Of a stretch of DNA of 47,064 nucleotides, positions 38,926 to 45,523 are shown piece by piece (the first letter of the stretch is position 1; every line of letters begins with the position of its first letter). This stretch comes from Microcaldota archaeon. GTDB taxonomy: Archaea > Micrarchaeota > Micrarchaeia > Anstonellales > Anstonellaceae. The translations under genes were made by a program, and so were the position numbers. The stretch is from the NCBI GenBank assembly GCA_018304295.1, contig JAGVWK010000020.1, positions 1 through 47,064 on the forward strand, in the 5' to 3' direction. Under the pieces are notes generated by a model that worked only from the letters and a program-made list of their open reading frames with translations, did not search any database and was not told the origin of the DNA.

Positions 38926-41040
38926 ATGGCACACCAAACACACCAGCGGCTTGTCGGAATTGCACTGCTCTTTTTGTTTTTTGCAGCAATCTCATTCGCA
39001 TCCCCCGCAGCGAACGCAGGCACTGACCAGACAACAACTGTCGGGCAGAACATAAGCGCGAACGGCGCATCCTCCACGTGCTCCGGCTGCTCCATAACTT
39101 CCTATAACTGGAACTTCGGGGACAATGGGACGGCGAGCGGCGTTTCAGCAACGCACTCCTACTCGTCTGCAGGCAGCTACAGCGTAACCCTCACAATAGT
39201 CGCAAACAATTCCGAGATAAGCTCGGACACTTTTACTGCAACAGTGCAATCCGGAGATGCAACCCCGCCCGCAATAACCCACACCAACATAACCGACTGG
39301 ACGCAAAATACAGTGCTGTCTGTGAGCGCAACGATTACTGACAACGTGGGGGTTTCAAGCGCAACCCTTTATTACAAAAACTCAACGGATGGCGCAACCT
39401 TCTCGTCAACCTCAATGAGCTCAAACGGAAACACCTATTCGGGCACAATACCCTCAAGCGCAACAAACGGCACAAACATTTCCTATTACATAAGCGCGTC
39501 GGACGGCAGTTCAAACTCCATAAGCTACCCGGCAGGCGGTTCATCTTCGCCCCTTGTGGCGAACCTCTTGGAAACAGACATTGTCGCACCCATTACGACC
39601 TTTGTGAGCGTAGCCGGGGATTCCTCCTCGCCCTACTGGGTGACTTCGGGCGCCTCAAACAACGCGCAGGTGCTTGCAGTGGGCGAATCAGGCATGCTTT
39701 GCCGCATGGGGCCATCAAACACAAACTATTCCGGCATGACAGTGGGATACGTGGACTGCACAATAAGCGGCACAAGCGCAAACTGCACTGACAGCATAGT
39801 AGACGGAAACTACACCCGCTATGTTGCGTGCAAGGACTCAAGCGGCAACGAGCAGACAAACGCAAGCACGCTCACGGTTTCCTTCGGGGTTGACAGCACC
39901 GCGCCAGTTTCACTTTCCTCAATAACAGCCACTGAACTCTCAGGCAGGGTACGGATGCGCTGGACCCCTTCCACGGACAACACAAGCGGAGTTTCAGTCC
40001 ATAAAATCTACAGGAGCGCAAGCTGCGCCTCAAACTATTCCTCAATAGCGTCTGTGGGCTCAGCGGTTTCAGAATACAATGACACAACAGGCGCAAGCGG
40101 AATTGATTACTGCTATCGCATTTATGCGCAGGATGCAGCAGGAACCCTTGCATCCACCTCGCCCACAACGGCCGCAATAACATTTGGGGCACCAAGAATA
40201 ACTGCGCTTTCCATGTCACTCTCAAGCGGCACGCTCACCCTTTCCACAACCACATCTGAAAATGCAACCTGCCGCTATTCGGCATCCAACGCGGGCTTTT
40301 CCTCAATGTCAAGCGAATTCACAACCGGCCAAAACACAACTGCGCATAGCGTTGGCGTTTCAGGCACCTCAGGCAGCATAATATACTATGCAAGCTGCGC
40401 TGACACGCTTGGAAACGCAATGAGCACGGCAAACTCAACAAACTACATGTTTGCAAGCGCATCCACCACGACCGGCAGCACAGGCAACACAGGAGCCGGC
40501 GGCAATGTAGCGCAAGGCCAGCCAGCTCCTTCGGACAGTGAAACTCAAACAGAGCCCGCACAGCCAGCCCAGCCAGCCGAACCAAACGCACCTGCGCCTA
40601 GGGAAACACAGGCGAGCATTATAGCCCCCACAGCAGTTTCAGAGGGCGAAACAGTTACAATCACGCTCGTTGATGCTGTTGGCGCCCCAATAAGCGGCGC
40701 AAATGTCATTGTTACCGGCCCTGCAGGAAACAAGCTTGAGTACATCACGGACTCCAACGGCCAGTTCAGGTTCACTGCGCTTTCAGAGGGCACATACTCT
40801 TATGCTGTGGAAGGCGTGCAGCTCACTTCATCAGCGCAGACAAGCGCAACAAAAAGCCAGGCAGCAACACCAAGCGTTGTGGAGCAGGCTTCAGCCCCTG
40901 AAGGCGCGGCAACAGAAGGAGCGCCTTCAGCAGGCTGGGGAGCGCTCTTCCTCGTAGGCGCAGGCTTGCTTGTGGTCGCAGTTCTTGGAGGCGCAGCTTA
41001 CCTGCTACTCTCCAAGAAGGGCAGGCGCTCTTCCTCGTAG
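38926..41040 (+). CDS. PKD/FN3-like surface protein with C-terminal membrane anchor
   Basis: This 704-residue protein has a signal peptide (about 8-28) and a PKD domain (about 30-110, YNWNFGDNGTASG and THSYSSAGSYSVTL). Fibronectin-like domains follow, with TPPAITHTNITDW and SVHKIYRSASCASNYSS. Next come a Pro/Ala/Gln linker, an Ig-like domain (LVDAVGAPISGANVIV) and the anchor helix. GGAGG lies eight bases before the ATG. An 83-base tandem duplication inside the anchor region makes it end RRSSS at 41040; without it the tail would read KKGRKGL. It is probably an exported, glycosylated structural or adhesive protein. Confidence 0.75.
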   Translation: MAHQTHQRLVGIALLFLFFAAISFASPAANAGTDQTTTVGQNISANGASSTCSGCSITSYNWNFGDNGTASGVSATHSYSSAGSYSVTLTIVANNSEISSDTFTATVQSGDATPPAITHTNITDWTQNTVLSVSATITDNVGVSSATLYYKNSTDGATFSSTSMSSNGNTYSGTIPSSATNGTNISYYISASDGSSNSISYPAGGSSSPLVANLLETDIVAPITTFVSVAGDSSSPYWVTSGASNNAQVLAVGESGMLCRMGPSNTNYSGMTVGYVDCTISGTSANCTDSIVDGNYTRYVACKDSSGNEQTNASTLTVSFGVDSTAPVSLSSITATELSGRVRMRWTPSTDNTSGVSVHKIYRSASCASNYSSIASVGSAVSEYNDTTGASGIDYCYRIYAQDAAGTLASTSPTTAAITFGAPRITALSMSLSSGTLTLSTTTSENATCRYSASNAGFSSMSSEFTTGQNTTAHSVGVSGTSGSIIYYASCADTLGNAMSTANSTNYMFASASTTTGSTGNTGAGGNVAQGQPAPSDSETQTEPAQPAQPAEPNAPAPRETQASIIAPTAVSEGETVTITLVDAVGAPISGANVIVTGPAGNKLEYITDSNGQFRFTALSEGTYSYAVEGVQLTSSAQTSATKSQAATPSVVEQASAPEGAATEGAPSAGWGALFLVGAGLLVVAVLGGAAYLLLSKKGRRSSS
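40926..41024 (+). repeat. Anchor-coding DNA, copy 2 (99 bases identical to 35378-35476)
   Basis: The segment encodes SAGWGALFLVGAGLL and the membrane helix of the third surface protein and equals the copy at 35378-35476 base for base. Confidence 0.9.
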
Positions 41041-41244: not shown

Positions 41245-42378
41245 ATGCAGCACGTTTCCATGCTTGCCTGGCGCCCACAAATGCTTTTGCCCGCACTCCA
41301 GCAAGCGAAGGAGGCATTCCCAGACGCGCATTTATTCGCATGCTGCCAAGAAAAAGACGCGCACTTGCCGTCCCAAGGCGGCCTGCAGTTTTTTTGCGCA
41401 GAGGATGCGGATGAATTTTTCAAATACGGGGCAGAATATGGGACAAAAGAGCTGCAATCCTCAATAGGGCATTGGCGAAACCTGATGCAGCTTGCAAGCG
41501 TTTCCCTAGGCAGTCCCCCTCTCATTTTCCTTGACGACGACATTCTCCCGGACAAAAACTGCGGTGCTGTTTTTTCCGCCTCATTGCAAAAATACGATCT
41601 TGTGCAGGGCGCATACAATGGCTGCCTTGGAAACGGCATTTACATGCTTGTTTATTTTTTTGACTGGCTGCTTGATCAGCGCAAGCGCGCGGATTTCCAA
41701 AACACTGCGGAACTCATGCTCAGGGGCACAGTGCGCCGCACGCATGCACAAGCCTCCCTGCGGGGGCTTTCAGGCGGCCTTTTTGGCATAAGCAGCAAGC
41801 TAAAATCAAGGCAGGCATTTTTCCCTACAAAATATCCGTTTGACGACCATTTCTTTGAGTTTTGCTGCAGGCACGCCTTCAAGCAGGCAAATTTCATGGA
41901 TGAGCGCACACCCGCCTCTGACATACCCACAGCAACGCACGAAACAGTCACCTCTGCTTCTTTCTCCAAGCTTGTGGATCACTATATACTATATGTGCGT
42001 TCCTCAATTGTGGAAACCTATTCCTACTACTGCTTATGTGGCAAAATACCGCAACTTGTGAATAATAGGCACGTGCTGGCACGCATAAGCAACTTTGACG
42101 CGCAGCAAATGTGCAGCCTGCTAACCTCTCAAGCAGCGCTTGAAAAGTTCAAAAAGGCGGCAGAGCACCACCTTAAGGGGGGCTTTGGCAAGCCCATTGA
42201 TTCCCAGTTGCGCAGGGTCGCGTCCCTTTGCGAGCAAGACTTTTTTGTTGGCATTGAAGAGCTTGAAAAAGAGTGGGCAAATTTCATACAGGAGCAGCAG
42301 TGGCTTAAGGATGCTCTTATGCTTGCCAATGCCAACCCACAGCACGCCAAAGGTGCGCTTTTTGCCAGCAGGGAATAG
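41245..42378 (+). CDS. Glycosyltransferase-like protein (GT-A-like, unassigned)
   Basis: This 377-residue protein has a likely GT-A core: LIFLDDDILPDKNCG (about 93-107) carries a DDD that may bind the metal-nucleotide, and GLSGGLFGISSKL resembles the acceptor loop of such enzymes. Later blocks are YPFDDHFFEFCCRHAF and PTATHETVTSASF. The last 130 residues are helical. I cannot place it in a named GT family. It stands alone between the surface-protein operon and the S-layer gene, so it may glycosylate surface proteins. The start is backed by a TATA box 25 bases upstream. Confidence 0.62.
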   Translation: MQHVSMLAWRPQMLLPALQQAKEAFPDAHLFACCQEKDAHLPSQGGLQFFCAEDADEFFKYGAEYGTKELQSSIGHWRNLMQLASVSLGSPPLIFLDDDILPDKNCGAVFSASLQKYDLVQGAYNGCLGNGIYMLVYFFDWLLDQRKRADFQNTAELMLRGTVRRTHAQASLRGLSGGLFGISSKLKSRQAFFPTKYPFDDHFFEFCCRHAFKQANFMDERTPASDIPTATHETVTSASFSKLVDHYILYVRSSIVETYSYYCLCGKIPQLVNNRHVLARISNFDAQQMCSLLTSQAALEKFKKAAEHHLKGGFGKPIDSQLRRVASLCEQDFFVGIEELEKEWANFIQEQQWLKDALMLANANPQHAKGALFASRE

Positions 42379-42592
42379 CCAGCATGCACTAATGCACGGC
42401 AAATGTGGATGTATTGAGTTTATCGCCGTAACAAATATTCAAATCTCCCATATTATACGTTAAAAACAACAGGAATTCGTCAGTGGATGTTGGCATAATA
42501 TGGCATTTAACGATATTAAATATTTTATTTCTAAACAAAACTTTATACATATTGATAACATTTAAATACCTTCCGAAGAAAGCTATTCCTAT
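42379..42592. other. AT-rich upstream region of the S-layer gene
   Basis: No gene is seen. From about 42490 the sequence becomes very AT-rich, with several TATA-like words (ATTAAATATTTTATTT, CTTTATACATATTG, ACATTTAAATACC). This fits a strong promoter region with possible regulator sites. Confidence 0.45.
42561..42570 (+). promoter_or_regulatory. Probable TATA box of the S-layer gene
   Basis: TTTAAATACC is the box nearest to the leader. It predicts transcription starting near 42590-42597 and a leader of about 150 bases before the ATG at 42749, which is unusually long for this genome. An upstream box at 42541-42548 is an alternative. Confidence 0.45.
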
Positions 42593-42610
42593 CTCTATGA
42601 GAGGCACTCT

Positions 42611-42679
42611 ATGAGCGCCCGAGGGAAAAGGGTACACGGAATGGAATATATGAAGGGCACAAAGACTTGTCGCTGGTAA
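42611..42679 (+). CDS. Possible 22-residue leader peptide upstream of the S-layer gene
   Basis: An ATG at 42611 opens 22 codons (start MSARGKRVHGME, end KTCRW) and a TAA at 42677-42679. The stop falls in the loop between the arms of an 8-base-pair hairpin. No ribosome-binding site precedes it, so translation is uncertain. A shorter frame (MRGTL) begins at 42597 and overlaps its start. Confidence 0.25.
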   Translation: MSARGKRVHGMEYMKGTKTCRW

Positions 42680-42717
42680 TCTTTGTGAAATGAGTGCCCT
42701 TTGAAGGCAGCGACAAG
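42653..42717 (+). promoter_or_regulatory. Structured RNA leader of the S-layer mRNA with interlocking inverted repeats
   Basis: Three perfect inverted repeats interlock within 65 bases. AAGGGCAC (42653-42660) pairs with GTGCCCTT (42694-42701). CACAAAGA (42658-42665) pairs with TCTTTGTG (42680-42687). CTTGTCGCTG (42666-42675) pairs with CAGCGACAAG (42708-42717). The first two can stack as one long stem if the first gives up three bases; the third crosses both and so would form an alternative fold or a pseudoknot. The ribosome-binding site GAGGTGA (42738-42744) is 20 bases downstream. This looks like a regulatory or stabilising leader for a very abundant mRNA. Confidence 0.65.
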
Positions 42718-42737: not shown

Positions 42738-42744
42738 GAGGTGA
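42738..42744 (+). promoter_or_regulatory. Ribosome-binding site of the S-layer gene
   Basis: GAGGTGA, a full match to the archaeal anti-Shine-Dalgarno core, lies four bases before the ATG at 42749. It is the strongest site in the window, as expected for a highly made protein. Confidence 0.75.
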
Positions 42745-42748
42745 ATAC

Positions 42749-45523
42749 ATGAAAGGAGTGAACGTAAAGAAAATAGCCGCACTGGCAGGCGTCGCTCTCC
42801 TCGCGGGCGCAGGCATAGCAGCAGCTGACGTAGTATACGGCAGCACGCAGCTAGTCGACCAGAACGGCCAGCCAACAGTGAAAATCGTTGTTGGCTCAAT
42901 GGCGCAAGTATCCGACGGCGTTGCAGCCGCGAACATTGCAGCCGTGATTGCAAACAATGCATACATGACGTCAACGCTTAGTGCAAGCGTACCAAATGAC
43001 GCATGCAGCGTTGGGGGCAGCACAAACGCAACTGGCGAAGGAACATGCGCAATCTCCAACAAGAAGGTTACGCTGTCCGTAAGCATGCCCGGCGCAATCG
43101 CAGGGGCATACCAGTTCAACACACTGATAACGGACACAATTGACAAAACGCTGGCGAACCGTGCCTCCACAAACAGCGAGGACATGTACACGTCAACGAA
43201 TGCGTCTGACGCATCTACCGTGATCTCTCCACTGAGGTTCGGCTTGGGCGACGTATCAAAGGCACAATTGCTTTACCGCATAGGCGGAGCACAATACTCT
43301 GGCTTTGCAGACAGCATGCAGGCAGACCCACAGGCAACCTCAGAGTATGCATACACCGAGGAGCAGAACTTCTGGGTAGGTTCAAGCTCCAATGCAATTG
43401 CGTACGATGAAGGCAGCAGCTACCGCGACGTTGTTGCAAAATACACAGTAGCAGCGTATAACGCGCGCTTTTTGGGCAACGACTACGGCATTCCGGTGTG
43501 CACAGGCGGCGACAGGACCGCAGGCGACTGGACAAACTGCGCAAACGACACAAACTACCTTACAGCAAATCACCGCCTGAAAATCAACTTCATGGGCGGC
43601 GAATGGGTAGTTTCTGCAATGACAAGGCCAACAACGGCACTTGCATCCTCAACAGCTGCAATAAACGGCGGTGAGATAAAGCTTGCCAAAGAGGCAAAGC
43701 ACGACATTGTGAACGTAGGCGGTGTGCTTGATGCGGGCACCTTCAAGGTAAGGCTCGCCGACATATCAACAGCAACAGGCTCTGATAACGCACACCCTGC
43801 AATCATTGACGTGCTTGACTCCAACGACGTAATCGTAGGGCAGATAACCGTGAACGCAGGCTCAACATACACGTTCGTGCAGAGCGGAACAGACGCATCT
43901 GTAAAAATACACGTGTACAAGACAGCGCCCGGGTTTACCCTCAACGCAAAGTGGGCTGAGATCGCAGTCTACACTGATGAGATAGTGTTGCGCGACGGCC
44001 AGAGGTACAACCAAGTTACCACAACGGACCCGAACAAGAACTTCAAGGTGTCTCTCATTTGGAAGAACCGCGACTATGCAGCAGGCGACTCTTCACAGAG
44101 CAGCACTGTCGCTGACTCGCTGCGTGAAATCGTAATCTACAATGAGCAGGACTTCACAGGGCAGAAGTATGCAGCAGGGGACTCGTTCAACTTCCTTGCA
44201 ACAGACCCGGCATACAGCTTGACCTACAGCGGTCTTGACCTCACTGACACAGACTACGAGGGAATAAGTGTTACGGCGTTGTCCTCAACGGACTACACTG
44301 TTGCATACACTGGCACTGACTCGTGCACAACAACAGGCACGTACACTGCCAAGCTCATTGAAGTGAGCGCGGACGGCTTGTCATTCGGCGGCTCTGGAGA
44401 CCTCCTTACAATAAGTGGTTCCAGCTATGTTGTTGACAGGTTCTATATAGACCCAATCGGCTTGAACGGCAGCGATGACGGATTCCTTCCGGTAGGCACA
44501 CAGAACACCAGCCTTAACATCAACATCAACGCAACCCTCCCGAAAATCCTCTTCAGGCCAGCCAACAGTGATTGTTATTTCTACAAGAACATAACAACCA
44601 TCCAGACGGTGGGCGCCGGAACAAACGGCTCGCAGGCAATATCTGCCAGCAGCACTGTGAGGTACGACAACGCAGGCGCTGAGAGCGAAGCACAGGGATT
44701 GCTTTTCCTTGCCAAACTCAACCAGACCACGCCTTTCTTTGAGACCAACCCAAGCGGATATCAGTTTGACCTCGTGTTACAGGAGGATGCAGGCGAGCTC
44801 AACACGTCTTCACACTACCCAGTGTGGATACATCTGCCTTTCATCACCAACACGTCGGCAGGCACATTCCGCTTTAAGACTGAGGATGCCAGCACCTCGC
44901 AGGTGTACTATGACGGCGTAACAGCAGCTCAGGCAGCTGCCTTTGAGCTTCCGCTTGTAACAGAGCGCGGCTCACAGGTGCTTGACGTGTCAACGTCAGA
45001 CGCGGAAATGCAAATTGCAAAGAAAGTCGGCATGCCGACTTTCACCTTTGCAGCATCCGACATCGTTGTCTCTGAAGGCAACACTGCGGACTACGTGCTT
45101 GGCGAAGGCGACTCCGAGACATTCGGCGGCGTTGAGGTAACAGTGAGCAAGATAGAGCAGACGGTCGGCTCATGCACCGCATCCACATCAGGTGGAGTGG
45201 CATGCACTGTTGACACAAGCAAGGCGGTAATAAGCCCCAACAATGCAGCGCAGGTGGTTGCGACCCAGCCCTACACCCTCACCAGCAACCTTGTCGTAAC
45301 AGACAGGGAAGCGCCCTCAACCGGCGTGGTGATTGCAGTGGGCGGCCCGCTTGTCAACACGGTGACAGCGGACATGCTCAGCGGCTCAACGGTGGACTTC
45401 CAGACTGATGCAGTAGTGGTGCGGGAGATTGTCCCAAGCAGCAAGATTGTTGTTGCTGGTGCAACCGCGGCTGACACGCTCACTGCAGCAGAGCAGTTCA
45501 TCGCAGGGATACGCAGGCAATAA
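42749..45523 (+). CDS. S-layer protein
   Basis: This 924-residue protein begins with a signal peptide (KKIAALAGVALLAGAGIAAA, cut near ADVVYG). The methanococcal-type S-layer N-domain follows (GQPTVKIVVGSMAQVSDGVA and AANIAAVIANNAY). The C-domain has VVIAVGGPLVNTVTADML and PSSKIVVAGATAADTL, matching the paired Rossmann-like N/C halves known from these S-layer proteins. The middle is beta-rich with several N-x-S/T sites. It would form the outer lattice and is the likely main carrier of the glycan made by the neighbouring genes. A strong ribosome-binding site, a structured leader and a terminator mark it as highly expressed. Confidence 0.92.
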   Translation: MKGVNVKKIAALAGVALLAGAGIAAADVVYGSTQLVDQNGQPTVKIVVGSMAQVSDGVAAANIAAVIANNAYMTSTLSASVPNDACSVGGSTNATGEGTCAISNKKVTLSVSMPGAIAGAYQFNTLITDTIDKTLANRASTNSEDMYTSTNASDASTVISPLRFGLGDVSKAQLLYRIGGAQYSGFADSMQADPQATSEYAYTEEQNFWVGSSSNAIAYDEGSSYRDVVAKYTVAAYNARFLGNDYGIPVCTGGDRTAGDWTNCANDTNYLTANHRLKINFMGGEWVVSAMTRPTTALASSTAAINGGEIKLAKEAKHDIVNVGGVLDAGTFKVRLADISTATGSDNAHPAIIDVLDSNDVIVGQITVNAGSTYTFVQSGTDASVKIHVYKTAPGFTLNAKWAEIAVYTDEIVLRDGQRYNQVTTTDPNKNFKVSLIWKNRDYAAGDSSQSSTVADSLREIVIYNEQDFTGQKYAAGDSFNFLATDPAYSLTYSGLDLTDTDYEGISVTALSSTDYTVAYTGTDSCTTTGTYTAKLIEVSADGLSFGGSGDLLTISGSSYVVDRFYIDPIGLNGSDDGFLPVGTQNTSLNININATLPKILFRPANSDCYFYKNITTIQTVGAGTNGSQAISASSTVRYDNAGAESEAQGLLFLAKLNQTTPFFETNPSGYQFDLVLQEDAGELNTSSHYPVWIHLPFITNTSAGTFRFKTEDASTSQVYYDGVTAAQAAAFELPLVTERGSQVLDVSTSDAEMQIAKKVGMPTFTFAASDIVVSEGNTADYVLGEGDSETFGGVEVTVSKIEQTVGSCTASTSGGVACTVDTSKAVISPNNAAQVVATQPYTLTSNLVVTDREAPSTGVVIAVGGPLVNTVTADMLSGSTVDFQTDAVVVREIVPSSKIVVAGATAADTLTAAEQFIAGIRRQ

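Follow-up and report, generated by a model that had tools for sequence, protein, structure and literature searches.

The region upstream of the S-layer protein gene of an archaeon of the order Anstonellales (Micrarchaeota; assembly GCA_018304295.1) contains three perfect complementary pairs of 8, 8 and 10 bases within 65 bases, and the question raised is whether these pairs form an RNA structure that has been retained by selection and, if so, what it does. The window analysed here is the 47,064 nt stretch of contig JAGVWK010000020.1. An earlier note, made from the sequence alone, had proposed that two of the pairs can form one long stem while the third crosses them, and that the leader may be a stability element, a translation switch or a pseudoknot.

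The pairs in the S-layer leader

All three perfect pairs were confirmed, and they lie in the predicted leader of an S-layer gene, identified by matches to PF05124 (E 2e-14) and TIGR01564 S_layer_MJ (E 1.5e-6). The features of the region are as follows.

42561..42568 (+), TATA-like box TTTAAATA, with the transcription start predicted at about 42590-42594
42592..42640 (+), 5' domain, a hairpin region (CUCUAUGAGAGGC...GCGCCCGAGGG) that is K-turn-like in family f1
42653..42660 (+), P1 5' strand AAGGGCAC
42661..42665 (+), loop L1, A-rich
42666..42675 (+), pseudoknot (PK) 5' strand CUUGUCGCUG, with the covarying core at 42667-42674
42675..42686 (+), conserved L2 core GGUAAUCUUUGU, the first base of which can also pair with 42708
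42694..42701 (+), P1 3' strand GUGCCCUU
42708..42717 (+), PK 3' strand CAGCGACAAG
42738..42744 (+), Shine-Dalgarno (SD) site GAGGUGA, 20 nt after the pseudoknot
42749..45523 (+), S-layer protein gene, 924 aa

If transcription starts about 25 nt after the TATA-like box, the leader is about 155 nt long. A 377 aa ORF at 41245-42378, upstream of the leader, has no Pfam or NCBIfam match, and a 704 aa protein with PKD and carboxypeptidase-regulatory-like domains (38926-41040), which is probably a surface protein, is encoded near the S-layer gene.

In 5000 dinucleotide-preserving shuffles of the leader, none had crossing perfect pairs of 8+/10+ within 70 nt, and none had three pairs of 8 or more (one of 10 or more) within 65 nt. 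The nested minimum free energy of the whole leader is not unusual (z = 0.12), because the structure is a pseudoknot. However, the note requires correction in two respects. The two 8 nt pairs, 42653-42660/42694-42701 (P1) and 42658-42665/42680-42687 (the middle pair), share 42658-42660 and cannot both be fully formed at once. The third pair (PK, 42666-42675/42708-42717) crosses P1 but can coexist with it (L1 about 5 nt, L3 about 6 nt), so that the arrangement is a loop-to-tail pseudoknot rather than only an alternative fold. The middle pair, which would pair L1 with the conserved L2 bases, is shared with the one congener but shows no covariation elsewhere, as L1 and L2 match no better within a leader than between leaders (helix score own 6.75, cross-species 7.05), and it was rejected as a conserved helix.

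Conservation of the pseudoknot

In order to determine whether the pairs are conserved, the leaders of S-layer orthologues, which were found in 54 of 59 related genomes, were compared. Most include a P1 hairpin GGGC...GCCC, a PK 5' strand in its loop, a conserved stretch after it and the PK 3' strand before the SD. The PK strands read GUCGCC/GGCGAC, GUCGUC/GACGAC, GCCGCC/GGCGGC, GCCACC/GGUGGC, GUUGCC/GGCAAC, GCUGCC/GGCAGC, ACCGUC/GACGGU, CUGCCUC/GAGGCAG and others. In a MAFFT alignment of 32 leaders built without structural information, the PK helix is 98.1 % paired, all nine pairs show changes on both sides and none of 500 shuffles reaches the covariation score, while sliding the partner by one to three columns destroys it. 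RNAalifold finds the same helix unaided. In a second alignment of 65 leaders, which was fitted to the helix and thus leans towards it, PK is 96.7 % paired and 8 of 8 pairs are changed on both sides. The covariation counts were not corrected by a tree beyond a within-genus check, but nine kinds of double change occur within three genera, six of them in one genus (g22 of family f7; families and genera are numbered here with f and g) and the others in f1.g3 and f7.g13, so this is not one old change counted many times. The window species itself contributes only one PK sequence type, shared with its congener, and the evidence for selection comes from its relatives.

P1 also covaries, with a best-helix score of 18.6 within species, 14.8 across species and 11.6 when shuffled, though in the MAFFT alignment it is partly misaligned and only 74.8 % paired. 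In PK there are 15 G-U pairs against 3 C-A mismatches on this strand, which fits an RNA of the + strand.

A covariance model with PK as its only structure was then used to scan the genomes of the order and those of the class and the phylum, the latter two giving the same 301 genomes. At E<=0.01 there were 62 hits in 60 genomes, with two hits in two genomes, and 61 of the 62 lie immediately upstream of an S-layer start codon. Both S-layer copies keep the element in the two genomes with two copies. The remaining hit (genome G151, E 0.005) and a weaker non-S-layer hit (genome G036, E 0.057) look like chance. Addition of six weaker loci (L006, L023, L027, L103, L104 and L128, where L denotes an individual S-layer locus) gives 67 loci in 29 genera and 12 families of the Micrarchaeota, with genus and family labels compiled for 65 loci. 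Families f12, f13, f14 and f15, and f16, which was added by L128, lie outside the order used for the model. Nothing was found at E<=0.1 in 80 archaeal genomes from outside the phylum, though this search is weak as its first filter limits the candidates and there was no positive control. Rfam 15 has no match for the window at the gathering threshold or for the leader alone at E<=1, and 20 related loci gave only a tRNA.

Some related S-layer genes do lack the pairs, namely those of f8, a family of the same order, and of the large families f20 and f21, and the note had listed such absence as a refutation. However, in nine of the ten f20/f21 genes examined (L131-L136 and L138-L140) the TATA-like box is only 35-67 nt before the start, mostly without an SD, and there is hardly a leader at all; the tenth (L137) had an ambiguous start. 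This is therefore loss or absence of the whole module rather than decay of the pairs. Other leadered relatives without PK (L142, L143 and L145) carry an unrelated stable hairpin just before the SD, for example ACGACgaaaGUCGU-GAGGUG.

The bases between the PK 5' strand and P1 are also conserved, with the consensus G-N-U-A-A-N3-U-U-N-U carrying 1.2-1.6 bits at positions 1, 3, 4, 5, 9 and 12 and 0.76 bits at position 10, against 0.04-0.5 bits at the other positions. L1 is 60 % A over the leaders, and the last base of L3 is A in 50 of 65. Extra hairpins are inserted in L2 in L006, L026, L041, L048, L100 and L128 while P1 and PK are kept, and in L048 and L006 the UAA core is lost or changed.

A TATA-like box precedes the element in 64 of 65 aligned loci. 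Between the predicted start and P1, most leaders carry one or two strong hairpins, and this 5' domain folds better than shuffles across 64 loci (mean z -3.2, 49 with z < -2), though z is only -0.1 in the window species. A kink-turn-like pattern (CC-NNN-GA ... GA-GG), a possible L7Ae site, was seen by eye in the 5' hairpin of many family f1 leaders (window 42590-42635, L003, L005, L007, L008, L010 and L014) but is not kept in L009 or in other families and does not define the element.

Possible roles of the leader RNA

The pseudoknot ends 2-13 nt before the SD in 53 of 65 leaders and up to 52 nt before it in the rest. The compensatory changes proposed as a test in the note are found, but its suggestion of a switch between two folds, when examined around the SD, finds no support. 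PKa pairs somewhat better with the SD than shuffled PKa (-5.0 against -3.9 kcal/mol), but this pairing is weak and absent in genus g2, and the best SD partner lies at PKa in only 26 of 65 leaders. Accessibility of the SD rises slightly with the pseudoknot imposed (0.43 to 0.50), but no more than when random stretches are masked (p = 0.15). In families f9, f11, f14 and f15 (L015, L016, L037, L109 and L115) the SD sits in a small potential hairpin, (A)ACCA(C/U)GAGGUGGU(U), that would hide it, but this is not seen in most other families.

The presence of a conserved pseudoknotted RNA dedicated to S-layer leaders is established by comparison (confidence that it is real and under selection is about 0.97), while its function is inferred. 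The reading we favour, with a probability of about 0.5, is that the RNA is transcribed with the S-layer gene and folds co-transcriptionally into a compact receptor, and that recognition of the U-A-A/U-U-N-U core by a ligand (ion, metabolite or protein) changes the stability of the pseudoknot just upstream of the SD. This in turn would change 30S loading, and possibly mRNA life, so that coat synthesis is matched to need. The highly conserved unpaired bases argue for specific recognition rather than mere bulk structure. Against this reading are the lack of a conserved alternative pairing with the SD, the variable distance to the SD and the absence of other target genes that might give a clue to a ligand, and there are no transcription start, expression or binding data. 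A more specific form, in which the element represents a new, lineage-wide class of archaeal riboswitch that senses an ion or metabolite through the conserved core and sets the amount of S-layer protein, the first such control described for an archaeal cell coat, is not excluded but appears unlikely.

The main rival, held only tentatively, is a constitutive expression leader in which the 5'-terminal hairpins and the pseudoknot protect the very abundant S-layer mRNA from decay and keep the SD open without sensing anything. The stable 5' hairpins found in most loci, the wide variation in distance to the SD and the unrelated hairpins in other leadered S-layer genes of the phylum are consistent with this, and the 5' UTRs of slaA/slaB in Sulfolobus and of slp in Methanococcus maripaludis raise protein yield (PMC11627041), though no conserved folded RNA is described in the parts of that work consulted. 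However, plain hairpins would suffice for this role, yet the unpaired L2 bases are conserved over many families, and families f20 and f21 express S-layer genes with little or no leader. In addition, an inconclusive search of 20 family genomes gave only weaker beta-CASP matches and no match over cut-off to the RNase J family (TIGR00649), so the 5' exonuclease that would have to be blocked is not identified.

An SD-occluding translational riboswitch of the SAM-II/preQ1 type is improbable. These riboswitches, like those of the SAM-V type, appear to have a similar small loop-to-tail pseudoknot with A-rich loops close to the SD, but here the SD is not part of the PK 3' strand in any of the 65 loci, the spacing varies from 2 to 52 nt, L2 is long (usually 16 nt or more) with its own consensus and, the two apparently chance hits aside, only S-layer genes follow. 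A protein-only autoregulation site, bound for example by the S-layer protein, a ribosomal protein or L7Ae, is less likely again. Though the conserved core could be a protein site, the K-turn-like piece is restricted to part of one family. In contrast to the structured leaders of ribosomal-protein and L7Ae mRNAs, the target here is a surface protein. That the pairs, which are also inverted repeats in DNA, represent DNA operator repeats or shared ancestry of a promoter region is contradicted by the compensatory changes in crossing pairs, the excess of G-U pairs over C-A mismatches, the position between a TATA-like box and the SD, and the loop inserts that keep both helices (L006, L026, L041 and L048).

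The nearest described analogue by context is the SLH motif RNA (PMC6429828), a riboswitch candidate of unknown ligand found in bacteria (Synergistaceae and Firmicutes) upstream of S-layer-homology-domain genes. The target here is a PF05124/TIGR01564 S-layer protein, and no sequence or structure match to the SLH motif was found, though this rests only on the empty Rfam 15 scans, which may not include that motif, and not on a direct comparison of models.

Structured, conserved leader RNAs are rarely described in archaea, and in the papers searched we found none described for DPANN archaea or for an archaeal S-layer gene. The element gives a sharp consensus and a recognisable natural contrast in the families whose S-layer mRNA has almost no leader, so how archaea tune their most abundant surface protein becomes directly testable in vitro even though these organisms are uncultured.
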